Part shown: in pieces, positions 3,580 through 42,386 of the stretch | Numbering within the stretch: position 1 is the stretch's first letter | How the letters are laid out: each line of letters opens with the position of its first letter | Origin: Bdellovibrionales bacterium | GTDB lineage: Bacteria; Bdellovibrionota; UBA1018; CAIMNF01 | Length of the DNA stretch: 42,529 bases | Reading direction: 5' to 3' | Assembly (NCBI GenBank): GCA_947462765.1 | Contig: CANHQK010000015.1 | Coordinates: 1-42,529 of the forward strand | The notes under the pieces: model-generated | What the model was told of the DNA's origin: nothing | Database searches by the model: none | The model's input: only the letters and a program-made list of their open reading frames with translations | Made by a program: the position numbers and the translations under genes

Positions 3580-3873
3580 ATGCCTAAAATCAAGTTTCTG
3601 CCCTCCGGAATCGAAGTCCAAGCGAGAGACGGTGAGGCCCTGCTCGACATCGCCCTGGCGAATAATGTCTCGATTCAGCATGCCTGCGGTGGGTTTTGCG
3701 CCTGCACCACCTGTCATTGCGAGGTGGTCGAGGGTGAGGCGAATCTATTGCCTCCGGATGAGGATGAACAAGAGCGTCTCGGCGTACTCGACAACAGGAC
3801 TTCCCACTCGCGCCTCGCTTGCCAGTCGAAGGTGAGGGGAGATGTGGTGGTTCGGGTGGTCAACCCTGAGTAG
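3580..3873 (+). CDS. fdx: 2Fe-2S ferredoxin, adrenodoxin/Isc type
   Basis: Electron carrier for Fe-S cluster assembly. The 97-residue chain carries the ligand pattern C-x5-C-x2-C (Cys36, Cys42, Cys45, in HACGGFCACTTCHC) and a fourth cysteine at Cys81 (RLACQ), matching E. coli Fdx. The ATG at 3580 is chosen over an in-frame upstream ATG at 3541 because AAGGA sits at 3571-3575 and because the upstream start would run into iscA. Its last 14 bases overlap the end of the convergent serpin gene, with no terminator between them. Confidence 0.93.
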   Translation: MPKIKFLPSGIEVQARDGEALLDIALANNVSIQHACGGFCACTTCHCEVVEGEANLLPPDEDEQERLGVLDNRTSHSRLACQSKVRGDVVVRVVNPE

Positions 3874-5050
3874 GATCCAAGACCCGTCCCATAAAGTAGA
3901 TTTCGCCGCTTTTCGGATGGATCAGAAGGAACAAGAAGGGCTCATCGGCATAGAACGGCACCGCTGAACCTTCGAAAAGACTCGAACGTTCAAGCATGAC
4001 AGCCGTTGCAGCAGCTGCCTCGGTGCCTTCCTCCCGGACATCGAGTGAGATCGCTTGAACCACATCGGTCGCCGTCAACTCTCCCGAGGCAAGCACCTTC
4101 GGGAAAGCTCCTTTGATAAACAGCTCTCCGAATCCGGCAGCCTTCATCAGAGGTTGGAGGCTTTGCTTGAGTTTGACCGAAAAGCGGGGCAGGACGAGGT
4201 CAACTTGTCTGTCTTTCCAGTTCGCTCCGATGGTCTTCACGAAGTCGGGTCCGATCCGGCTCTCGATCGACTTCAGGTCAAAACGTTTTTTTGGCAGTCC
4301 GATCCACATGACCAGAGGCGTATCCTGATAGGGAAGCTCCACCCATCTCGAAATCGGGTCCTCCTGAAAACGGAATCGCGCACTCTGTTGCATGAGCGGA
4401 ACGACCTTGGTCGCGTGCGGTGAGGGCTGGAACCTTCCCGGTGCGGTACGATCTTTTGAGAAGGGGCGGGTCCACAGTGCTTTCAGGTAGAGAGTATTGA
4501 GTGCGAGAGCCTGGGTTGAGGGCTGGATCCGGTCAAGAAGCTGGGGGATTTTTCCGCCAGTCGCTTGATTGACCCAGGAATTCAGTTCTTTTAGCTGAAG
4601 GCGGTTCGTCTCCGTCCGGAGATTGGATAGGGACTTCTTGAAGTCGGCATGAATCTGTTTCGGATCCTTGAGCCAGATCGAGTTGGTGATTGAAAATTCG
4701 AAGCTCTTTTTGTTTTTTCGAGTCTCGTCCAGCAGTTCAAACTCGGCAGGGGCGATGGCGGTCTGATTGGCATTCAGCCCGAAAAGTGCCTCGAGTGATT
4801 TTTTTGCACTTCCGGATGCGCCCGGCTGGAGGATGCCGAATGCCATTTTCAGACTGAGTGGCGAAAGCGCCACATTCTTCGGATCGTGTGCAAGCAGACG
4901 GTAGAGATCGAAGACGGATCGGGAGGGTTCGACTATCCGGGCTTCATTCGTGTTGGCAGGGGTCAGCGTTTCGGGTGGTGCTGGGTCGGGAGTCGGTGAC
5001 CGGTTGCAGGAAGAGAGCAGGACCAGGGAGCAAGCGAGTAAGGATCTCAT
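3860..5050 (-). CDS. Serpin (family I4 protease inhibitor), lipoprotein
   Basis: Suicide inhibitor of serine (or cysteine) proteases. A lipobox signal (LLSSC, Cys15) would place it on a membrane facing the periplasm or exterior. The serpin fold is clear: NVALSPLSLKMAFGILQPGA, LNTLYLKALW, VLPRFSVK, and the C-terminal PFLFLLIHPKSGEIYFMGRV. The hinge at residues 340-350 (EEGTEAAAATA) is the small-residue type seen in inhibitory members. By standard numbering P1 falls on Ser356 with Arg355 at P2, so the loop may be cut after Arg355 by trypsin-like enzymes; it is a few residues longer than in antitrypsin. Start: ATG at 5050; a GTG at 5056 is also possible. Neither has a good ribosome site. It ends the long minus-strand run. 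Confidence 0.93.
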   Translation of the reverse strand: MRSLLACSLVLLSSCNRSPTPDPAPPETLTPANTNEARIVEPSRSVFDLYRLLAHDPKNVALSPLSLKMAFGILQPGASGSAKKSLEALFGLNANQTAIAPAEFELLDETRKNKKSFEFSITNSIWLKDPKQIHADFKKSLSNLRTETNRLQLKELNSWVNQATGGKIPQLLDRIQPSTQALALNTLYLKALWTRPFSKDRTAPGRFQPSPHATKVVPLMQQSARFRFQEDPISRWVELPYQDTPLVMWIGLPKKRFDLKSIESRIGPDFVKTIGANWKDRQVDLVLPRFSVKLKQSLQPLMKAAGFGELFIKGAFPKVLASGELTATDVVQAISLDVREEGTEAAAATAVMLERSSLFEGSAVPFYADEPFLFLLIHPKSGEIYFMGRVLDPTQG

Positions 5051-5071
5051 AGACACACTCAGGATAGCACG

Positions 5072-22694: not shown

Positions 22695-24482
22695 ATGCAG
22701 CCCTTGTCCGTATTGCTGAGGTTGCTGTCTCTCTCCATGCTCCTGTCCGCTTGCGGAATCGGGGTCGATCCCTTTCCTGAGCGTCCACTGGCTCCCGCAA
22801 GGGTCCAAGTGGTCGTACCGCCTTATCCGGTCATTGCTGATGGGCAGGACTTCCTCTCGATCGAGGTCCGGTTCGAGGATGTTCTCGGGCGTGAGGTGCC
22901 CGGGGTGCAGCCTGAGTTTCTTGTATCGGGCACGGGGGGGGCATTGAATTGTGGTTCGAGCAATGCGAGGGGGATAGCCATTTGCACCTTCGTGCCATGG
23001 CCATGGGTAGCGGGTGAATCCCATATCGAGCTCCAGAGCCCACTTCGAGGCCAAGCCTCCTTCACCCTAACCGCATTGGATTCAAGTAGTTTCCAGTACC
23101 GAATTCAAGGGGGCGGGACGGTCGAATTACCGCTTCACTCGGGTGGGACCTATGCAGGTTTGACCGTGTACTGGGGAGATGGAAGCTTCAGTGCGGTATC
23201 TGGCCCCAACGATCCGTCACGATTCCATACCTATGCCGACAATTCTGAACGAATCGTGACCCTAAATGGCAGTTTTGACCGCTTGGTCTTTTACGGGCAC
23301 CAACCTGAGCGACTTCTCGATGTCCGCTACTGGGGCAACAATTGGAGCGTGATCACCGACATGAGGGACCTTTTCCGAGGGTGTACCAGGTTGAGAGTCT
23401 TCTCTGCGCGTGACACACCTGACACTTCCCTGGTGACGAGCTTCGAGTCCACATTTGAAGGCGCCATCCTGTTCAATGGGGATGTCTCTGATTGGGACAC
23501 CGCGTTCGCGACTAGTTTTTCGAGAATGTTCAAGGGGGCGAGGAGTTTCAACCAGGATATAAGTAGGTGGTCGGTCAGTAATGTGGTCGATTTCAGTGAG
23601 ATGTTCAGTGCAGAAAACATGGACCTCAACGATCCGCTGGATCCGGACCCGGCCCACCCGATGGTCTTCAACCAAAGTTTGACCAACTGGGAGGTGTCCA
23701 GTGGATTGAGTTTTAGCAAGATGTTCGCCGGAGCGGTTCACTTCAATCAGGATCTCAGTCCCTGGAATTTATTGTCGGCCACTGACTTGTCGGGAATGTT
23801 CTTCCATGCCCATGCCTTCAATATGGGAGATACGTCAGAGGGCATGGTCGACTGGGTCCAGGGCAATGCATCCAATCTCAGTCACATGTTTCATGATGCC
23901 CGAGCCTTCAATCAAGACATCGGAGCTTGGGATGTCGTTGCGGTCACAAATATGAGTTACCTGTTCAGGGATGCGGAGAGTTTCAATCAACCCCTCCCGA
24001 ACTGGTTGACAGATAGTTTGACAGATCTGAAAGGGATGTTTCGGGGTGCTAGCGCCTTCAATCAAGGTCTGAACCACCTGAATACACGTGGTGTCTCAGA
24101 TTTTTCTGAGGTCTTCATGAATGCCTCCAGTTTCGACAACCAAGGGATTAGTTTTCAGTGGGACACTGGCTACGCGACGAATATGGCTTACATGTTTTTC
24201 GGTACAGCAAATTATCAGCAGGGATTCGGTGCAAAATTCAATGTGAACGTTGTCACGAACTTCGATTCGATGTTTGCCTTTGCCACCTTGTTTAATGGAG
24301 ACATCAGCACCTGGGACACTGGAGTTGCGCAAAATATGAGCCATATGTTCGAGAGCGCGCAAGCCTTCAATGGGGATCTCAGTCTTTGGGATGTAGGTTT
24401 TGTGACTCAGAGTTCAAACTTCGATCTCGGAGCCAAGTCATGGGATCCAGTGAATAAGCCAAACTTTTCTGGTGCTCGGTAA
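22695..24482 (+). CDS. BspA/DUF285-repeat surface lipoprotein
   Basis: A lipobox signal (LLSAC, Cys20) anchors it to a membrane. Next come a beta-rich, Ig-like (Big_1-like) region at about 30-125, a PKD-like region with TVYWGDGS and FHTYADN, and, from about 220, roughly eleven DUF285 repeats of 23-27 residues with the pattern FNQDxxxWDVxxVTNMSxMFxxAxx. Repeats of this kind form surface solenoids used in adhesion, known in mycoplasmas, flavobacteria and oral pathogens. GAAGGGG lies before the ATG. The coding sequence and the leader (AATTGTTGATCAATT) look AT-richer than their neighbours, so horizontal acquisition is plausible. Its stop is 2 bases from that of ygiQ. Confidence 0.88.
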   Translation: MQPLSVLLRLLSLSMLLSACGIGVDPFPERPLAPARVQVVVPPYPVIADGQDFLSIEVRFEDVLGREVPGVQPEFLVSGTGGALNCGSSNARGIAICTFVPWPWVAGESHIELQSPLRGQASFTLTALDSSSFQYRIQGGGTVELPLHSGGTYAGLTVYWGDGSFSAVSGPNDPSRFHTYADNSERIVTLNGSFDRLVFYGHQPERLLDVRYWGNNWSVITDMRDLFRGCTRLRVFSARDTPDTSLVTSFESTFEGAILFNGDVSDWDTAFATSFSRMFKGARSFNQDISRWSVSNVVDFSEMFSAENMDLNDPLDPDPAHPMVFNQSLTNWEVSSGLSFSKMFAGAVHFNQDLSPWNLLSATDLSGMFFHAHAFNMGDTSEGMVDWVQGNASNLSHMFHDARAFNQDIGAWDVVAVTNMSYLFRDAESFNQPLPNWLTDSLTDLKGMFRGASAFNQGLNHLNTRGVSDFSEVFMNASSFDNQGISFQWDTGYATNMAYMFFGTANYQQGFGAKFNVNVVTNFDSMFAFATLFNGDISTWDTGVAQNMSHMFESAQAFNGDLSLWDVGFVTQSSNFDLGAKSWDPVNKPNFSGAR

Positions 24483-34985: not shown

Positions 34986-35065
34986 ATCAGGGTGCTGGGC
35001 ACAGGTCCCAGATGAATTCAATGATTCGCACGATTGAACCGAAAAGGGTAAGGGAGGGTGGTGGA

Positions 35066-35434
35066 ATGAAAATCCAGACCTTTATACCGATTCAGGCCTC
35101 GTTTGGCCGGATCACCGAGGCGGGTAACGACAAGCAGGGGGGCGCGGGCTCCAATGCTTACGAACGCCAGAAGAAACAAGAGAAGAAAGAGGATCAAACT
35201 CCCGTCACAGCTGAGGCTTTGGAGGAGGCGATCGAGTCATTTTCCGTCGATGAGACCAATCTCTCTCACGGGATCAGCGCCTCTTCGGTGGGTAGCGGGC
35301 CCGGCCTCCGAGTGGTATTGAAGGATGGGGCTGGTGGAATCCTGCGCTCGGTCTCGGGTGAGGAGTTTCTGCGTCTCCGTGAGGCGATCCACTCGGGGAA
35401 CAAGTCCGGACGCATTCTCGATCAAAAAGCCTGA
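35066..35434 (+). CDS. FlaG-like flagellar protein
   Basis: First gene of the filament operon. The C-terminal part (PGLRVVLKDGAGGILRSVSGEEFLRLREA) resembles FlaG, a small protein that affects filament length and often precedes fliD; the N-terminal part is a charged linker (RQKKQEKKEDQTP). The start used is the ATG at 35066 because GGAGGG (35051-35056) lies upstream; the longer form from 35012 has no ribosome site. 122 residues. Its stop overlaps the next ATG by one base. The resemblance is short, so the name is tentative and rests partly on position. Confidence 0.5.
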   Translation: MKIQTFIPIQASFGRITEAGNDKQGGAGSNAYERQKKQEKKEDQTPVTAEALEEAIESFSVDETNLSHGISASSVGSGPGLRVVLKDGAGGILRSVSGEEFLRLREAIHSGNKSGRILDQKA

Positions 35435-36198
35435 TGGAACGCTTTCGCCGGGTGTGGGTCTTCTCGGATTTGCACCTGACCCGTACGGATGAGCCTTTGT
35501 ACCGTTCGTTGATTGCAGCCCTCGAGCAACCTGTGGGTGAGGGGGATGCAGTGATTTTTGCCGGAGATATCTTCGATCTGGTCGTCGGAGATTCCGAGTA
35601 CTACCGGATCAAGCACCGGGATTTCATCGACTCCGTCACCCGCTTGCTCTCAAGACAAGTGCGCATTTTTTATATCGAGGGCAATCACGACTTCCACCTG
35701 TCCGGGTTCATGCCCCGCGGGGTCCGCTTCGAGCCTGAGGCGGTCTGTATGGAACTAGAAGGAGCCACTGGCTTGCGTAAGCTTTATGTCGCACATGGGG
35801 ACCTCGTTGATCAGAGCGATGTCGGTTACCTGCGGCTCAGGTCTTTTTTCAGATCCCGCCCCCTTCATGGTCTGGCCCGAGTCCTGCCGGGGGCTTGGAT
35901 CGACCGGATTGCCTCCCGGCTTTCAAGATCTCCAGAGCGCAAGGCCAGTGAATTGCCGGAGAGCTGGCCCCCCCCGCGACGGGAGTCCCTGAGGCGAGTG
36001 TTTCGGGATTTTGCCTCCGGGGTCCGCTCGAGGGGGTTTGACGGGGTGATTCTGGGGCATTGTCATGATTTTGACTCAGCAGACGGTTATTACTTCAATA
36101 TGGGCTATCCCCCGGTGCACCGTCAATTTCTGGTCTGTGGCGATTTCCCTGAATCTGCCGGAGAAATGATCGGACGTCGCAATTTCCCTGGATTTTAG
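35434..36198 (+). CDS. LpxH-like metallophosphatase
   Basis: Calcineurin-fold two-metal phosphoesterase of the UDP-2,3-diacylglucosamine pyrophosphatase (LpxH) group. Metal and catalytic motifs in order: FSDLHL, FAGDIFDLV, EGNHDFHL, VAHGDLVDQSD, and LGHCHDF. 254 residues. LpxH acts in lipid A synthesis at the inner membrane, but this copy is translationally coupled to FlaG-like and fliD genes (TGATG overlap upstream, 48 bases to fliD), so a role in the flagellum or a sugar-nucleotide step is possible. It could also be a distinct LpxH2-type enzyme. Confidence 0.75.
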   Translation: MERFRRVWVFSDLHLTRTDEPLYRSLIAALEQPVGEGDAVIFAGDIFDLVVGDSEYYRIKHRDFIDSVTRLLSRQVRIFYIEGNHDFHLSGFMPRGVRFEPEAVCMELEGATGLRKLYVAHGDLVDQSDVGYLRLRSFFRSRPLHGLARVLPGAWIDRIASRLSRSPERKASELPESWPPPRRESLRRVFRDFASGVRSRGFDGVILGHCHDFDSADGYYFNMGYPPVHRQFLVCGDFPESAGEMIGRRNFPGF

Positions 36199-36245
36199 CG
36201 GGAAAGCCTTCAAAATAGAAGGTGAGGTCAAGGAGGACTTCAAGC

Positions 36246-37646
36246 GTGGGTTTACGTTTTGATCCCATGGGCGGAGGCCAGTTCAAACAGGCTTTGAACG
36301 CCATCATCGAGGCTGAAAAACAGCCGGTCAAATCGCTTGAGAAGCGCAAGGAGGCGGAAAACGCCAAATTGAAGCTCTTCGGTGAGTTCAAAGGCAAATT
36401 CACCTCCTTGCAAGGTTCTCTCGATTCGATGATCGGCTTCTCCAAATTCAAGGAGTTGCGTGCCGAACTCGGGGATGGTGCCCAACTCATGTCGGTGAAT
36501 GTCGACAAGGAAAAAGCGAACGTCGGAAGCTGGGAAGTCGAGATCAAGGAACTGGCCGAACGGTCCTCGATGATTTCGAACGGCTTCAGTGATCCGAACA
36601 AGAAGATTCTCGGTGTGGGCTACATCTCCTTCGATCTTGCCGATGGTAAGAGTCAGGACATTTATGTGACCGAGGACGATGCCTCGCTGTACGGCATCGC
36701 CAACAAGATCAATCTCATGCCCGACAGCCCCGTGAAGGCCACGGTGCTCAAAGATGTGACCGATACCGAAAAACCCTATCGTCTGGTCATCACTGCCAAG
36801 AAGGACGGGTCGGAGAGCGAGGTCAAATTTCCTCAGATGTACTTCGTGGACGGTCAGGAGGAATTGTTCATCGACCAGGACAAGGGGGCCAAGAATGCCT
36901 TGCTTGTGGTGGATGGATTCGAGGTGGAGTTGCCCGGGAACGAAGTTCCAGATTTTTTACAGGGCATCGGCGTCCAGTTGAAGCAGGCCAAGCCAGGACA
37001 GAAGTTCACTTTCAACGTGAAAGCCGACTATGCGAAGGTCACTGACAAGGTGAAACGAGTGGTCGAGGGGATCAACGGAGTCCTCGACTTCATCAACAAG
37101 CAGAACGCGGTAAACGAGAGCTCGGATACCAAGAGCACTTTCGCAGGGGATACTTCGCTCCAGAACATCGAATTCCGTCTCAGGAACCTCATGCACGAGG
37201 GTTTCGGCTCTCACACTGAGAACGAAGACTCCTTCAAGGTGGTGCACCTGAGCGAACTCGGGATTGAATTCGACAAAAAGGGCGTGGTCCAGCTCAAGGA
37301 AGAAAAGTTCCAGAAAGCGCTTGAAGCGGATTTCGAGGGGGTCGCGGAGGCGATCTCCGGCGAACGCGGGTTCATCACCCAGTTGAAAACCGTCATGGAC
37401 GGGTTCGCGAACGTGCAAGGCGGGGTCATGGTGGCGCGTGAAAAAGGCCTTCAAGCACGGATCCGTCAGATCGACGAATCCATCTCGAACAAACAGAGGG
37501 CGATTGAGAAAAAAACCGAATCGCTCACCAACCAGTTCAGCCGTCTGCAAGGATCCCTGTCCGAGCTACAGCGGCAACAGAGTTATCTCTCGGCCACCCT
37601 CGGGGGTGGCGGAGGCAATCCCGTATCGCAGTTATTAGGAGGATGA
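36246..37646 (+). CDS. fliD: Flagellar filament cap protein FliD (HAP2)
   Basis: Caps the growing filament and helps flagellin subunits fold into place outside the cell. The N terminus FDPMGGGQFKQALNAIIEAEKQPVKSLEKRK and C terminus (QFSRLQGSLSELQRQQSYLSATLGGG) are the coiled-coil ends typical of FliD; the middle holds the D2/D3 beta domains. Start is GTG at 36246, with AAGGAGG about 9 bases upstream; an upstream in-frame reading to 36222 lacks this. 466 residues. fliS follows after 4 bases with its own AGGAGG. Confidence 0.93.
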   Translation: MGLRFDPMGGGQFKQALNAIIEAEKQPVKSLEKRKEAENAKLKLFGEFKGKFTSLQGSLDSMIGFSKFKELRAELGDGAQLMSVNVDKEKANVGSWEVEIKELAERSSMISNGFSDPNKKILGVGYISFDLADGKSQDIYVTEDDASLYGIANKINLMPDSPVKATVLKDVTDTEKPYRLVITAKKDGSESEVKFPQMYFVDGQEELFIDQDKGAKNALLVVDGFEVELPGNEVPDFLQGIGVQLKQAKPGQKFTFNVKADYAKVTDKVKRVVEGINGVLDFINKQNAVNESSDTKSTFAGDTSLQNIEFRLRNLMHEGFGSHTENEDSFKVVHLSELGIEFDKKGVVQLKEEKFQKALEADFEGVAEAISGERGFITQLKTVMDGFANVQGGVMVAREKGLQARIRQIDESISNKQRAIEKKTESLTNQFSRLQGSLSELQRQQSYLSATLGGGGGNPVSQLLGG

Positions 37647-37650
37647 AACC

Positions 37651-38040
37651 ATGAGTAAGTTGAACGCGTACAGACAAACAGCCGTGACCACTGCATCCCG
37701 TGAGCAGGTGCTCATCATGCTTTACGAGGGGGCAATCAAGTACCTCAAGAAGGCAGCCGAGTGCACCCTGGCCAAGGATCTGGCAGGAAAAGGGGTGGCG
37801 GTTGGAAAAGCGCACGACATCATCAATGAGTTGTCCAATTCACTCGACTTCAATGTGGGGGGCGATATCGCCAAGAACCTGGAACGTCTCTATGCCTTCA
37901 TGATCGAACAGATCACCCGGGGCAATCTGGAAAACGACCCGACCAGGTTCGACCAGGCCCGGAAGCTTCTCGAGAACCTTCTCGAAGGCTGGAAGGGTGC
38001 CATTGAACAGGTCAAACAACAGAAAGTGAAGGCAGGATGA
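37651..38040 (+). CDS. fliS: Flagellin export chaperone FliS
   Basis: Binds flagellin C termini in the cytoplasm, stops early polymerisation and hands subunits to the export gate. The helical bundle starts with NAYRQTAVTTASREQVLIMLYEGAIKYLKKA, the FliS signature, and includes NELSNSLDFNVGGDIAKNLERLYAFM. 129 residues, as expected. AGGAGG sits 8 bases ahead of the ATG. The stop overlaps the next ATG by 4 bases. Confidence 0.95.
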   Translation: MSKLNAYRQTAVTTASREQVLIMLYEGAIKYLKKAAECTLAKDLAGKGVAVGKAHDIINELSNSLDFNVGGDIAKNLERLYAFMIEQITRGNLENDPTRFDQARKLLENLLEGWKGAIEQVKQQKVKAG

Positions 38041-38486
38041 AGATCATCAAACTATTCGAAGAGAAGCAGAGACTGCTCAGGAGCTTCCTGGAGCGGACCC
38101 GGAGTTTTCAGGAGTCCCTTTCCAAGGAGGGGGTTGAGATCGAAGAGAAACTCGATCTGATCGACGAGCTATCGGATGTCCGGGAGGCCAACCTCCGGGT
38201 GATGCAGGCCTTGGACGCCGAGATCGATCAGGCCAAAAAGGCCTTGGCGGCTCCGGAAATCGCCCGTTTGCAATCCGATCCGGGGTTCAAAGAGGTCCTC
38301 GACGGGGTGATGACAATCATTCGCGAGATTCAATTGACGGACCAGTCACTTTTTCTATACATTCAAGGTACGGGATACGAGCTACGTAGCCGGATTCTGA
38401 AAAGCCTCAAGGAAAAAGAGGCGGTGTCGAAGTTTAAAAGCCAGTCCCAACCCCCTACCGGAGACGGGATTGATCAAACGGTTTAA
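38037..38486 (+). CDS. FliT/FlgN-like helical flagellar chaperone candidate
   Basis: 149 residues, almost wholly helical (LLRSFLERTRSFQESL, IEEKLDLIDELSDVREANLRVMQALDAEI), ending in a polar tail. Position directly after fliS, with the ATGA overlap, is that of FliT in many bacteria, and the length suits FliT or FlgN. Sequence identity to either is too weak to see by eye. It probably binds FliD or hook-associated proteins before export. Confidence 0.5.
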   Translation: MKIIKLFEEKQRLLRSFLERTRSFQESLSKEGVEIEEKLDLIDELSDVREANLRVMQALDAEIDQAKKALAAPEIARLQSDPGFKEVLDGVMTIIREIQLTDQSLFLYIQGTGYELRSRILKSLKEKEAVSKFKSQSQPPTGDGIDQTV

Positions 38487-38500
38487 GTGAGACGAAAAAC

Positions 38501-39649
38501 ATGATGTTTGAACAACTGGGAAAGATTTCGCAAAACTCCACGTCCGACAACACCCGGTTTTTTCCTGTGGCCTCCCTCGAGGATGTGGCCATTCACCTTC
38601 AGGATAGCGATGAGGAGTGCACGTATGAGTACTACCTCGCTCAGATTCGCACCCCGAAAATGAAGGCGGTGACTCCGCCTCCATTCATGAGTGCCCCCGC
38701 TCAGGAAGCCGTCAGTGCCCCGTCCATTCCGGAGACCGGAACGGGTGCGGTCGCAGGCGCATCAGCCCCCGAAAAAGAAGACATCCCCTATCTTGCTGAA
38801 AACGCTCAGATTTTGCTTTCTGCCGGGGAAGTGGCTTTGGCTCGGAATATTTTCCGTGCCATCCTGAGAACAGGAGAAGCGAGCGACATCGCCTATGCGG
38901 GCCTGGCTGCCTGTTCGGATCGTGAGGGTTTGGTCGATCAAGCCATCCAGTTTGCTTGGGACTCCGTGGCCTTCGCTCCGAACAAGCAAGGGTATCAACT
39001 GCTGGCCCAGCTTCTGGTTCAGCAAGGTCGGGATCAGGAAGCGGCCCAAGCCCTTTCCAGGGCACTCCGTTCGTTGGACCTCGGGGTTCAGGAGAAAGCG
39101 GAATACCAGAAAATGATCGGTAACTGCATGTCCCGTCTCGGCCAGGTCGCCGATGCCGAGCGAGCTTACAAAAAGGCGCTCGAGCTGAGTCCTGCGAGTG
39201 ATGAAGTCCAGGCCAATCTGGGTTCGCTTTACCTCGAGCAAGGCCAGGTTTCGGATGCCAAGCGCTGTTACCAGGATGCGGTTGCCGCAAACCCCGAGAA
39301 TGACAAAGCCTGGGTCGGGTTGGGGCTCTGCCATGTCTCCGAGGGTACGAAAGAAGCTGCCCATGATGCTTTCGCCCGCTCCCTCGAACTCAATCTCAGG
39401 AATTCAACAGCCATTTTCCATCTCGTCAAATGCGCCTATGAGGTTAAGAAGTACGCAACTGCCGAGAAACTGCTTTCTTCATACGTGGATGTCGCTCCTG
39501 TAAGTCCGAGCCTGTTGTACAGTCTGGCCGGGTTGCAATTCCATGTGGGAAAGAAGAATGAAGCCGCGATCACTGCGAGAAGGATTCTCCAGATCAAAGG
39601 CGACCATCAGGGAGCGAAAGACCTGATGAACCGGATCGAGGCGGAGTGA
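38501..39649 (+). CDS. TPR-repeat protein of the flagellar operon
   Basis: About 95 N-terminal residues rich in Pro, Ala and Glu (FMSAPAQEAVSAPSIPETG) precede roughly eight TPR units from residue 95 to the end, with clear canonical copies at AEYQKMIGNCMSRLGQVADAERAYKKALELSP, split here for clarity, and NLGSLYLEQGQVSDAKRCYQ. Such domains bind peptides or partner proteins. It lies between a flagellar chaperone and a glycosyltransferase gene. TPR proteins in this context could present flagellin or its chaperone to the glycosyltransferase; this is inference from position. 382 residues. The ribosome site is weak. Confidence 0.75.
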   Translation: MMFEQLGKISQNSTSDNTRFFPVASLEDVAIHLQDSDEECTYEYYLAQIRTPKMKAVTPPPFMSAPAQEAVSAPSIPETGTGAVAGASAPEKEDIPYLAENAQILLSAGEVALARNIFRAILRTGEASDIAYAGLAACSDREGLVDQAIQFAWDSVAFAPNKQGYQLLAQLLVQQGRDQEAAQALSRALRSLDLGVQEKAEYQKMIGNCMSRLGQVADAERAYKKALELSPASDEVQANLGSLYLEQGQVSDAKRCYQDAVAANPENDKAWVGLGLCHVSEGTKEAAHDAFARSLELNLRNSTAIFHLVKCAYEVKKYATAEKLLSSYVDVAPVSPSLLYSLAGLQFHVGKKNEAAITARRILQIKGDHQGAKDLMNRIEAE

Positions 39650-39682
39650 ATCGACGCCCGGATCAACTGTCATGGAGGACAG

Positions 39683-39829
39683 ATGGTAGCTGATATCGAA
39701 CTTCTGCAAGGAAAAATCATTCAAGACCCGGATCAGAGACCCAAGAATACCGTACAGCTCGTGGAAGAGCTGGCTCTTGAGATCCTGACAGCTGAAGAGC
39801 TGGCGGTCGCCGCTCGGGAGGCGGTATGA
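39683..39829 (+). CDS. Small 48-residue protein, unknown function
   Basis: An intact frame from the ATG at 39683 to TGA at 39829, too short for usual gene lists. GGAGGA lies at 39674-39679, a few bases before the ATG, and the stop overlaps the glycosyltransferase ATG by 4 bases (ATGA), the same coupling used by other genes in this operon. The chain begins MVADIELLQGKIIQDPDQ and continues as a helical, acidic-hydrophobic part (VEELALEILTAEELAVAA). It may be a small chaperone or anchor for the enzyme that follows. No family recognised. Confidence 0.65.
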   Translation: MVADIELLQGKIIQDPDQRPKNTVQLVEELALEILTAEELAVAAREAV

Positions 39830-41568
39830 ACACCCCCGTTGAGGCGGCTCAGCAGGGGACGGTTCGTCCTCTTGAATTACTCATTGTCCAGCTGGGAACC
39901 TTGTCCGAGGTTTTGCGCGCACTGATGGCGCTGAAGGCTGTGAAGCAGCTTTATCCCGCTACACGGGTACGTATGTTGGTCCGCTCTGAAAATCTAGAGC
40001 CGGTTTCCCGGGTCGAGTGGATCGAGGAGGTCTTGGTCCTCCCGAGAGGATTGACTCGCGAAACCGCCATGCAGAGTGTGGCATCCTGGCTCGGGACCGT
40101 GGTCGAACGGAGGTTCGACATTCTGGCGAATTGGACCGGAAATGGGGCTTCTTCAAGAATGGCGGCGATCGCCACCACCTTGATTCCGGCGATTGTTAAG
40201 CTCGGGGATCATCTCCGTGAGGATTTGAGTCTGGGTTCGTATGATGCCTGGAGTATGTACCGTCATGCGTGGAGCCAGGGTGGGGTTGAACAGGACATCC
40301 ACGAGACCGATCTGGTCACGACCCAACTCCTGACAGCGCTTCAAATCCATGCCGGCGAGCCCGTTTTGGATGCCGGAAACCATCAAGTGACTTCCCGATA
40401 TTTTTTCAAGACAGTTTCACTCGACATACCTGGAGTCTGGACCGCCCGTCCCAAGGGGCTGAAGTGGATTGCGGTTTCTGCGACCTCCGCTCCTGCCCGG
40501 ATTTCCGAGTGGATGGAGAGGGTGCTTCGACGGAACCCGGATTATGGAATGGTGGTGGTCGGAGCAGGAGAGATTCGTGATCTTCCGGATAGTCCCCGCA
40601 TCATCCGCCTTGGCGCCGATTCGGGCTGGGATACCCTGCTGACGGTGTTCTCCCAATGCTCCTGGTTGTGCGCGGGCCAGGATCCCTTGGTGGATCTCGC
40701 TTCCCTGGTGAATTTAAGGGTGTTTTTCTCTGCAGGGTCTGAGTCCCGCGAGTTCGGGCTGAAGTGGGCCGAGACCGGACCTTACGGTAACGGTCATGTG
40801 GTTCTGGTCTCCGCAAAAGAGTGGGATCCGGACGCCGCCTATGCGACGTGGTCTTATTTCCAGAGTGAATGGTTTCATAAGAATTCACTGACCGTGCAGG
40901 GGCACTTCGACCATTTGGGGTGCAACCGACAGCTCGAGTCCGTGCAGATCTACAAATCCCGGATCCGACCTTCGAACGAGGGCGGCGGAGTCTGTTACGA
41001 ACAGTCCGCAGGTGCGATCCGCGAGTTTGAGTCCTGGATTTATCGGGTCCGGGGCCAGGTGGCCCGTGCGTGGTTTTGTGGATGGTTGCCCGAACTCGAG
41101 CAAGAAGCTTCCAGGCTCAGCTTGAGCCCGGCGCTGATCAAGCGAATCCGGAGTCTGCAGGACTCAGTACAGGTGATCGGTCAAGTGGTTCAAGGGGCCA
41201 GAGGGACCGCCCGTGAGCTCGAGATGCTGGCATCCCGTAACCGTTCCGGGCATTTGATGAGTGTCGAAGATCGTGAGGCGATCGAGACGTGCGGAAAAAA
41301 ACTGCTCGAGATGGAGGCACTCATCGGTCGGGTCACGCGGATCGAGCCCGAGCTGGATTGCCTTCTGAAATGGTACCGGCAGAGAATCCACAATCTAGAT
41401 AGCCAGACTCTTTCCGGAATGGCCAAGGAAACCATTCAAGCGCTTGACTTGATGATCGAGGGAATGGATCTCCTGAACGCTTGGACATCGAAAACCCTCG
41501 AGTTGGCGCGTCCACGCGCAGTCGAGACCGCCGGGAACGCCGGGCGGGGTCAGGGTCTCACCAACTGA
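39826..41568 (+). CDS. GT9-type glycosyltransferase with helical C-terminal extension
   Basis: The N-terminal half reads as heptosyltransferase (GT9, GT-B fold): LLIVQLGTLSEVLRALMALKAVKQLYP, then FDILANWTGNGASSRMAAIA, and a second Rossmann half with WIAVSATSAPARISEWMERVLRRNPDYGMVVVGAG and the nucleotide-sugar-facing CSWLCAGQDPLVDLAS. From about residue 360 it differs from heptosyltransferases: more than 200 residues of mostly helical sequence (LEQEASRLSLSPALIKRIRSLQDS, LLEMEALIGRVTRIEPELDCLLKWY). 580 residues. The position after fliD-fliS-TPR suggests flagellin or filament-protein glycosylation. Lipopolysaccharide core synthesis is the alternative, but no LPS genes are near. It overlaps the MBL gene by 19 bases. 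Confidence 0.75.
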   Translation: MNTPVEAAQQGTVRPLELLIVQLGTLSEVLRALMALKAVKQLYPATRVRMLVRSENLEPVSRVEWIEEVLVLPRGLTRETAMQSVASWLGTVVERRFDILANWTGNGASSRMAAIATTLIPAIVKLGDHLREDLSLGSYDAWSMYRHAWSQGGVEQDIHETDLVTTQLLTALQIHAGEPVLDAGNHQVTSRYFFKTVSLDIPGVWTARPKGLKWIAVSATSAPARISEWMERVLRRNPDYGMVVVGAGEIRDLPDSPRIIRLGADSGWDTLLTVFSQCSWLCAGQDPLVDLASLVNLRVFFSAGSESREFGLKWAETGPYGNGHVVLVSAKEWDPDAAYATWSYFQSEWFHKNSLTVQGHFDHLGCNRQLESVQIYKSRIRPSNEGGGVCYEQSAGAIREFESWIYRVRGQVARAWFCGWLPELEQEASRLSLSPALIKRIRSLQDSVQVIGQVVQGARGTARELEMLASRNRSGHLMSVEDREAIETCGKKLLEMEALIGRVTRIEPELDCLLKWYRQRIHNLDSQTLSGMAKETIQALDLMIEGMDLLNAWTSKTLELARPRAVETAGNAGRGQGLTN

Positions 41569-42386
41569 GCCTTGGCTCGCTGAAAGGCTTCGTTACAGTG
41601 ACAGGGGAGCAGGCAAACGGTTTCCGGAACGGCCCGTAGACGTTGTACGGTTTTCCCGTACTCTTCGGTGTCATGGAAAATCAGTTTCGCGCCCAAGGCC
41701 GGGGGTGAGGTCCCGTCGCGGATGGAGGAACTCAAATGGGCCGCGTCTCCGACGAAAAACCAGGCTTTACCCCGGAAGTCAGGTAAATACAGACCTTGGT
41801 GTCCCAGGCTGTGACCGGGGAGCGGGACCAGGAACAAAGAACCGTCATCGAAAAGATCCCGTCCTATGAAACCGGGGCCGAGTCCGGGCAGATCGGTTTC
41901 ACGTCCGGGTTCAGCGCTGCGCTGGATGAAGTCGGGTGGCAACAGTTCCGGGACGAAGGCGTGGCGGAGGCGTCCGATCCGGGAGAGTCCGCACATCCAA
42001 CGGTACTCCTCAGCCGAGAAATAAATACGAGCCTGAGGAAAGTCATTCACCCCCGCGATGTGGTCAGAATGGAAGTGAGAGAGGACAATATGCCGGATCT
42101 CTTCCGGTCGGACTCCGAGCCCCCTGAGCTGATGAACCGCAGTGCTGGCATAATCGATCCGGATCGAAAAAAGATTCGAAAACAGATGTTCCGGAAAGCG
42201 CCTGAGCAGGTGCCGCAGACGGGGTGTGACCCCGGTATCGAACAGCATCAAACCCCGGGTAGAGTGTTCGATCAGCACCACTGTGGTCGGAAAACGGATG
42301 GGCTGGAATCCACCTGAAACCGGGTTGGCAAGATACTCGGGTTGCTCGGAATGACCCGCCTCCAAAATCTCGATTCTGCGGATCAT
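41550..42386 (-). CDS. Metallo-beta-lactamase-fold hydrolase
   Basis: Two-zinc hydrolase. The motif HFHSDHIAG gives the HxHxDH ligands, PGHSLGHQGLYL the next His, and WFFVGDAAHLSSS the bridging Asp; the N terminus has LIEHSTRGLMLFDTGVTP. The overall layout (278 residues) resembles N-acyl homoserine lactonases and glyoxalase II-like members; which substrate is used cannot be read. A late CLLPCHCNEAF supplies a further His. The start ATG at 42386 has no clear ribosome site. It converges on the glycosyltransferase gene and follows the barrel-protein gene by 15 bases. Confidence 0.85.
   Translation of the reverse strand: MIRRIEILEAGHSEQPEYLANPVSGGFQPIRFPTTVVLIEHSTRGLMLFDTGVTPRLRHLLRRFPEHLFSNLFSIRIDYASTAVHQLRGLGVRPEEIRHIVLSHFHSDHIAGVNDFPQARIYFSAEEYRWMCGLSRIGRLRHAFVPELLPPDFIQRSAEPGRETDLPGLGPGFIGRDLFDDGSLFLVPLPGHSLGHQGLYLPDFRGKAWFFVGDAAHLSSSIRDGTSPPALGAKLIFHDTEEYGKTVQRLRAVPETVCLLPCHCNEAFQRAKAQLVRP

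Follow-up and report, generated by a model that had tools for sequence, protein, structure and literature searches.

A fliS-linked module with a degenerate GT9-family protein at the end of a flagellar operon of a Bdellovibrionales bacterium

The window analysed here, a stretch of 42,529 nucleotides, is contig C15 (CANHQK010000015.1) of the 2.3-Mb, 91% complete genome of a Bdellovibrionales bacterium (GCA_947462765.1). Behind the flagellar genes fliD, fliS and a fliT-like gene, it encodes a tetratricopeptide repeat (TPR) protein, a protein of 48 residues and a 580-residue relative of the glycosyltransferases (GT) of family GT9. These three proteins may constitute the version, found in the taxonomic order of the window (hereafter the order), of a flagellin-handling module present throughout the phylum. 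In our preferred reading, to which we give a probability of roughly 0.45, the sequences point to an ancestral module for the glycosylation of flagellin in the cytoplasm, the enzyme of which would have become a non-catalytic partner in flagellin handling in the genus of the window. This reading is carried by gene order, by family membership, by the loss of residues and by purifying selection, all of which are observed. The genes concerned are the following.

36246-37646 (+), FliD filament cap (PF07195 3e-39, PF02465 2e-11)
37651-38040 (+), FliS flagellin chaperone (PF02561 2e-38; TIGR00208 above cut-off)
38037-38486 (+), FliT/FlgN-like helical chaperone, a weak label (FlgN only at E 0.33), overlapping fliS by 4 nucleotides
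38501-39649 (+), TPR protein of 382 residues (five TPR_16 and six TPR_19 stretches)
39683-39829 (+), 48-residue protein with LLQGK and an amphipathic helix predicted by eye (same slot in 39/40 related loci)
39826-41568 (+), GT9-family (heptosyltransferase-like) protein of 580 residues with a degenerate donor site (family profile, residue alignment)

All the open reading frames (ORFs) that an earlier note had placed downstream of fliD-fliS and a chaperone-like gene, namely those of the TPR protein, the 48-residue protein and the GT-like enzyme, were confirmed. From fliD onward, the intergenic gaps do not exceed 33 nucleotides, and in the window the stop of the 48-residue ORF overlaps the start of the 580-residue gene as ATGA, an overlap of 4 nucleotides that is found in 21 of 27 listed related loci.

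On the evidence of profile comparisons, the 580-residue protein is a relative of the GT9 heptosyltransferases with a long tail, as the same note had read from its GT9 features and helical C-terminal part. Taken alone, the window protein matched no glycosyltransferase family in Pfam or NCBIfam, PF01075 included; this family was matched at E <= 0.01 by 21 of the 35 aligned members of the order, and the family profile matched the WaaC/WaaF structures 2h1f, 1psw, 2gt1 and 6dfe at 2e-8 to 5e-8, as well as 3tov at 5e-7. The tail, approximately residues 330-580, is mostly helical in a low-confidence model, and hhalign relates it to the corresponding regions of both fliS-linked GT9 paralogues described below (probabilities of 94 and 92). 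The window genome has four PF01075 matches on other contigs, and their frames of 233-426 residues are too short to include such a tail.

The 580-residue protein is present in 48 of the 58 genomes of the order examined, including that of the window, and loci were fetched for 40 of these 48 (left out were the window's own, G005, G033, G034, G037, G041, G047 and G050). The TPR and GT genes are adjacent in all 40 loci, and fliD and fliS precede them in each of the 33 loci where the contig extends far enough, the other seven contigs ending first. An ORF bearing the motif of the micro-protein lies in the gap between the TPR and GT genes in 39 loci (by pattern search, the remainder being judged by eye); L074, the only locus without it, has too small a gap, and the LLQGE part is missing in L048 and L056.

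Outside the order, the usual module is composed of a TPR protein, a protein of about 200 residues weakly resembling the N-terminal domain of Maf (Maf-N-like) and two tandem GT9 enzymes, here called GT-A and GT-B. Such a tandem pair was found in 17 of 18 chosen loci; those of L095 reach 65 and 45 bits on PF01075, respectively, for a cut-off of 22. fliD, fliS and a FliT-like gene lie upstream in 16 of these 17 two-enzyme loci, the contig of L105 ending in the TPR gene, and the FliT-like slot was recovered by the profile of its relatives in 16 of the 17, weakly (18 bits) in L098. The protein of about 200 residues, which bears a G(L/A)GSGxH-like motif, precedes the first GT in 16 of the 17 and was not found in L110. 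Its matches to Maf_flag10_N are weak (5e-4 in L097, 0.01 in L106, none in L095 and L101), the cut-off of this family is narrowly exceeded by two frames linked to fliS (218 and 227 residues), and its family profile matches methyltransferase structures better than 5mu5 (E 0.17), which we take to be a Maf structure. Frames of 622-710 residues above the Maf_flag10_N cut-off occur in family f16.

At the scale of the phylum, the family profile of 35 rows had matches in 269 of 289 genomes, in many cases probably through ordinary GT9 genes. Linkage was counted in the 41 genomes outside the order that have both a GT match and fliS among the strongest matches listed, and in 39 of them, among these matches, a relative of the enzyme lies at 6 kb or less from fliS. 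The two exceptions are G154, where the match lies on a contig ending in the TPR gene, and G125, where the match and fliS are on different contigs. Conservation of a fliS-linked gene order across relatives, which the earlier note had proposed as a check, was thus found both within the order (33/33) and beyond it (39/41). In G125 (L103, contig C2), a Maf-N-like match (2.8e-10) stands beside fliS and the GT9 relative elsewhere, possibly a broken-up module.

A search for the protein of about 200 residues in 114 genomes returned 44 with a match at E < 1e-9; in all 44 the match lies at most 2.4 kb from fliS, and none of these genomes belongs to the order, where G024 (6e-6) and G010 (9e-4) gave weak matches, neither near fliS. 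Therefore, the Maf-N-like protein and one GT9 enzyme of the pair were lost from the order or never present in it: it has a single GT9 enzyme, and the 48-residue protein occupies the Maf-N slot. No separate GT-A gene was found in the order among the matches listed, with 14 of the 17 GT-A rows as query (L098, L102 and L114 being left out) and G021 and G023 unchecked; the best listed match often had the coordinates of the fliS-linked GT itself, and matches in the window genus were weak (3.5e-11 or worse). In an unrooted tree, the order, GT-A and GT-B each occupy one side of a branch, with SH-aLRT supports of 87, 99 and 49, respectively. Among intact members, the GT of the order shares 28% identity with GT-B versus 20% with GT-A, and a Cys/His motif occurs in 10/35 members of the order, 8/17 GT-A and 0/17 GT-B. 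A midpoint-rooted drawing suggested orthology of the order's GT with GT-B, which is one possible placement, since three groups without an outgroup do not fix the root.

The donor site was compared with that of WaaC, in which D13, K192, D261 and H266 are described as key residues and the mutations D13A, D261A and K192A as causing large losses of activity (PMC5713226; PMC3559599). A fifth residue, E222, varies in all groups and was left uncounted. All four matching residues are kept in 15/17 GT-B, 14/17 GT-A and 13/35 members of the order; the alignment includes eight sequences from the window genus, none with the full set. The window protein retains none of the four; seven of the eight genus sequences retain none and L039 one. 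All eight carry E at the position of D13 and D at that of H266 and have a gap at K192, and seven have another residue for D261 or lack it; two further members of the genus, L032 and L035, have the same E and D (residues 28 and 290). The fewest changes required on the tree are 6 for D13, 5 for K192, 7 for D261 and 10 for H266, which suggests that catalytic residues were lost more than once in the family.

Purifying selection acts nonetheless on the genes. The ratio of non-synonymous to synonymous substitution rates (dN/dS) of the GT gene relative to L036 is 0.052, with 0.039 for the N-lobe, 0.086 for the donor-site C-lobe and 0.043 for the tail, these ratios being rough since dS, at 1.6 to 2.4, is near saturation. 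The ratio is 0.034 for the 48-residue ORF and 0.033 for the TPR gene. Given its ratio and its recurrence at this place in 39/40 loci, the 48-residue ORF is more than a chance frame. Because the GT9 catalytic residues are gone in the genus, active filament glycosylation by the window protein is doubtful; from the proposal of a filament glycosylation module in the earlier note, the conserved fliS-linked set of TPR protein, small protein and GT9-like enzyme stands, and the activity becomes questionable here.

We infer from this material flagellin as the partner, heptose as the donor and a non-catalytic role in the window genus, with different degrees of confidence. A role with flagellin is by far the best guess because of the linkage to fliS; for the ancestral function, the intact GT9 sites of many lineages make glycosylation the best guess; and a non-catalytic role is somewhat likelier in the genus than altered catalysis because the site is dismantled. 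Ancestrally, the long-tailed GT9 enzyme would have worked in the cytoplasm with help from the TPR protein and another, small protein, attaching to Ser/Thr residues of flagellin a sugar taken from a nucleotide-activated donor, for which ADP-heptose is the likeliest candidate. It would have done so before FliS delivers flagellin to the export gate or during this delivery. Within the genus of the window, the donor pocket has been dismantled, with the tail, the partners, the gene order and the overlap of the 48-residue ORF retained. The protein therefore most probably works without catalysis, perhaps binding flagellin as a scaffold or chaperone paired with the TPR protein, and the helix of the 48-residue protein could be a docking piece.

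As donor, ADP-heptose is likelier than pseudaminic acid. HldD, the ADP-heptose epimerase, scores over its cut-off in 34 of 40 genomes, including that of the window. NeuB had no match in the 91% complete window genome and is present in one of 12 genomes of the genus; PF01973, the MptE/Maf catalytic domain, had none in the window genome and was matched in one of the 40 genomes searched. Eight Flagellin_N matches occur in the window genome, and the five listed, which lie on other contigs, were read as flagellins of 277-281 residues, too short to carry large outer domains. Caulobacter flagellins are likewise short.

Several points weigh against this reconstruction. The TPR gene is present in 15 of the 17 two-enzyme loci, L098 and L102 having neither the gene nor room for it. 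ADP-heptose genes are expected for lipopolysaccharide (LPS) synthesis anyway, and since 22 of the 40 searched genomes have NeuB, a heptose donor in the ancestor is a guess. K192 or D261 is missing from some heptosyltransferases (PMC3559599), the E in place of D13 could still serve as a base, and the uniform E and D replacements of the genus fit a re-modelled catalysis as well as a loss. Moreover, AlphaFold2 with six sequences yielded a pLDDT of 46.9, and the pocket was judged from the alignment alone.

Some of these points recur in the strongest alternative, in which the window protein would continue to glycosylate flagellin through a re-modelled site (E for D13, D for H266 and perhaps another donor) and would form a split FlmG together with the TPR protein. 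We regard it as possible, if rather doubtful. The conserved gene order and partners, an N-lobe under strong constraint (dN/dS 0.039), the replacements that are uniform rather than random in all eight aligned genus members and the precedent of FlmG, which combines TPRs with a GT-B part (PMC7591256), all agree with it; however, K192 falls in a gap in 8/8 and D261 is replaced in 7/8, the donor-site C-lobe is the least constrained region (0.086 versus 0.039 and 0.043), and the genome has no match to NeuB or PF01973. An improbable alternative extends the absence of catalysis to the whole family, beyond the genus too, the GT9 fold having been recruited as a flagellin export chaperone that never glycosylated. 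The long tail and the TPR partner would suit a chaperone and the catalytic residues were recurrently lost (6, 5, 7 and 10 fewest changes), but their joint retention in 15/17 GT-B, 14/17 GT-A and 13/35 members of the order suggests selection for catalysis there.

A bolder form of our preferred reading, the change of the enzyme into a non-catalytic partner, would be that a phylum-wide GT9 flagellin-modification module repeatedly turned its enzyme into a pseudoenzyme still required for flagellin handling, and that the 48-residue protein is a shrunken Maf-N-like remnant kept as a C-terminal docking helix. Taken as a whole, this seems unlikely to us, though it deserves mention. As for the remnant, alignment by hhalign to the expected C-terminal end gave P 0.061, an unrelated FliS control did better (0.035) and the candidate was rejected, its position being its sole support.

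Cytoplasmic glycosylation of flagellin is known for Maf and FlmG, with pseudaminic acid and related sugars. Both provide precedents for a modification before export (PMC4065374; PMC7591256). FlmG of Caulobacter is likewise cytoplasmic and likewise consists of a TPR part and a GT-B part (PMC7591256), but in a single chain, whereas the two parts are separate ORFs in the window and in 40/40 loci of the order, with the 48-residue protein in addition. The analogy with FlmG drawn in the earlier note, which concerns architecture and not sequence comparison, is reasonable in the sense of a similar mode of action, with a flagellin-binding TPR part and a GT-B part; it does not extend to the donor, as NeuB, needed for the pseudaminic acid of FlmG, was found neither in the window genome nor in 11 of 12 genus genomes. 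The LPS heptosyltransferases WaaC and WaaF share with intact members the family, a GD motif and a D(T/S)xxxH motif; the window protein differs from them by its long tail, its linkage to fliS and the loss of catalytic residues in its genus. The precedent for a protein acceptor is offered by the BAHT heptosyltransferases TibC and AAH, in which a GT-B heptosyltransferase fold acts on a secreted protein (PMC4358343), although they act on autotransporters as a dodecamer and are likened here by description, not by sequence. To the Maf flagellin glycosyltransferases (PMC4065374), the resemblance is that of the fliS-linked protein of about 200 residues outside the order, weakly, to the N-terminal domain; an MptE-like catalytic domain is absent from the module, and in the order the slot holds only the 48-residue protein.

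In Bdellovibrio HD100, fliD and fliS correspond to Bd0611 and Bd0612 (PMC9140294). Literature searches returned, among the matches listed, no publication on the genes behind fliS, nor any that names one of Bd0613-Bd0617 together with another of them or with Bdellovibrio, and the phylum-wide module is apparently undescribed. If true, two GT9 enzymes conserved beside fliS in relatives of the predator Bdellovibrio, together with a Maf-N-like partner, would add a further route of flagellin glycosylation, plausibly with heptose. Since the active site was recurrently lost and the gene kept, a comparison of intact and decayed lineages makes it testable whether the sugar or the protein contact matters.

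Upstream of fliD and after the GT gene, the operon is bordered by the following genes.

35066-35434 (+), FlaG-like small ORF, with a possible start at 35012 (ORF call; no FlaG Pfam match)
35434-36198 (+), LpxH-like metallophosphoesterase (PF00149 2e-11; TIGR01854 65 bits for a cut-off of 190)
41550-42386 (-), metallo-beta-lactamase-fold gene, convergent, directly after the 580-residue gene (NCBIfam similarity)

The first of these is presumably FlaG-like, a label given from its position and look. The metallophosphoesterase scores 65-66 bits against LpxH cut-offs of 134 and 190, its counterparts stay below the TIGR01854 cut-off in 12/12 genus genomes, and it is the sole TIGR01854 match of the window genome; a role in lipid A synthesis is possible. 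The FlaG-like ORF and the phosphoesterase are conserved as neighbours in relatives, and in several loci, L053, L055 and L069 among them, the intact pair is found on the opposite strand and kilobases away from fliD. The earlier note had also stated that no O-antigen or LPS core genes are near: no Pfam match to such a transferase was found among the 30 window proteins scanned, the other ORFs being unscanned, but the LpxH-like phosphoesterase lies just upstream of fliD. Homologues of the GT gene in LPS clusters of relatives had been named as a refuting case; instead, they are adjacent to the TPR gene in 40/40 loci of the order and near fliS in 39/41 outside genomes listed, the rest of these loci being unscanned for LPS genes. 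That the 580-residue gene is an LPS-core or O-antigen heptosyltransferase located in the operon by chance is, despite its GT9 membership and the LpxH-like gene upstream, very improbable in view of the fliS linkage throughout the phylum, the four further GT9 matches that the window genome has on other contigs and the tail common to the fliS-linked paralogues.

A promoter and terminator scan of the window gave counts near those of shuffled sequences (4 vs 2.3 and 6 vs 8.2, respectively) and was not used. The product of the convergent gene at 41550-42386 (-) has its best NCBIfam similarity with N-acyl homoserine lactone lactonases (AttM family, 64 bits for a cut-off of 390). Elsewhere in the window, a serpin (PF00079, 7e-72), a member of a protease inhibitor family seldom seen in bacteria, is encoded at 3860-5056 (-). 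A 595-residue protein at 22695-24482 (+) contains four stretches of DUF285 (PF03382, 2e-84), a domain named from Mycoplasma proteins.

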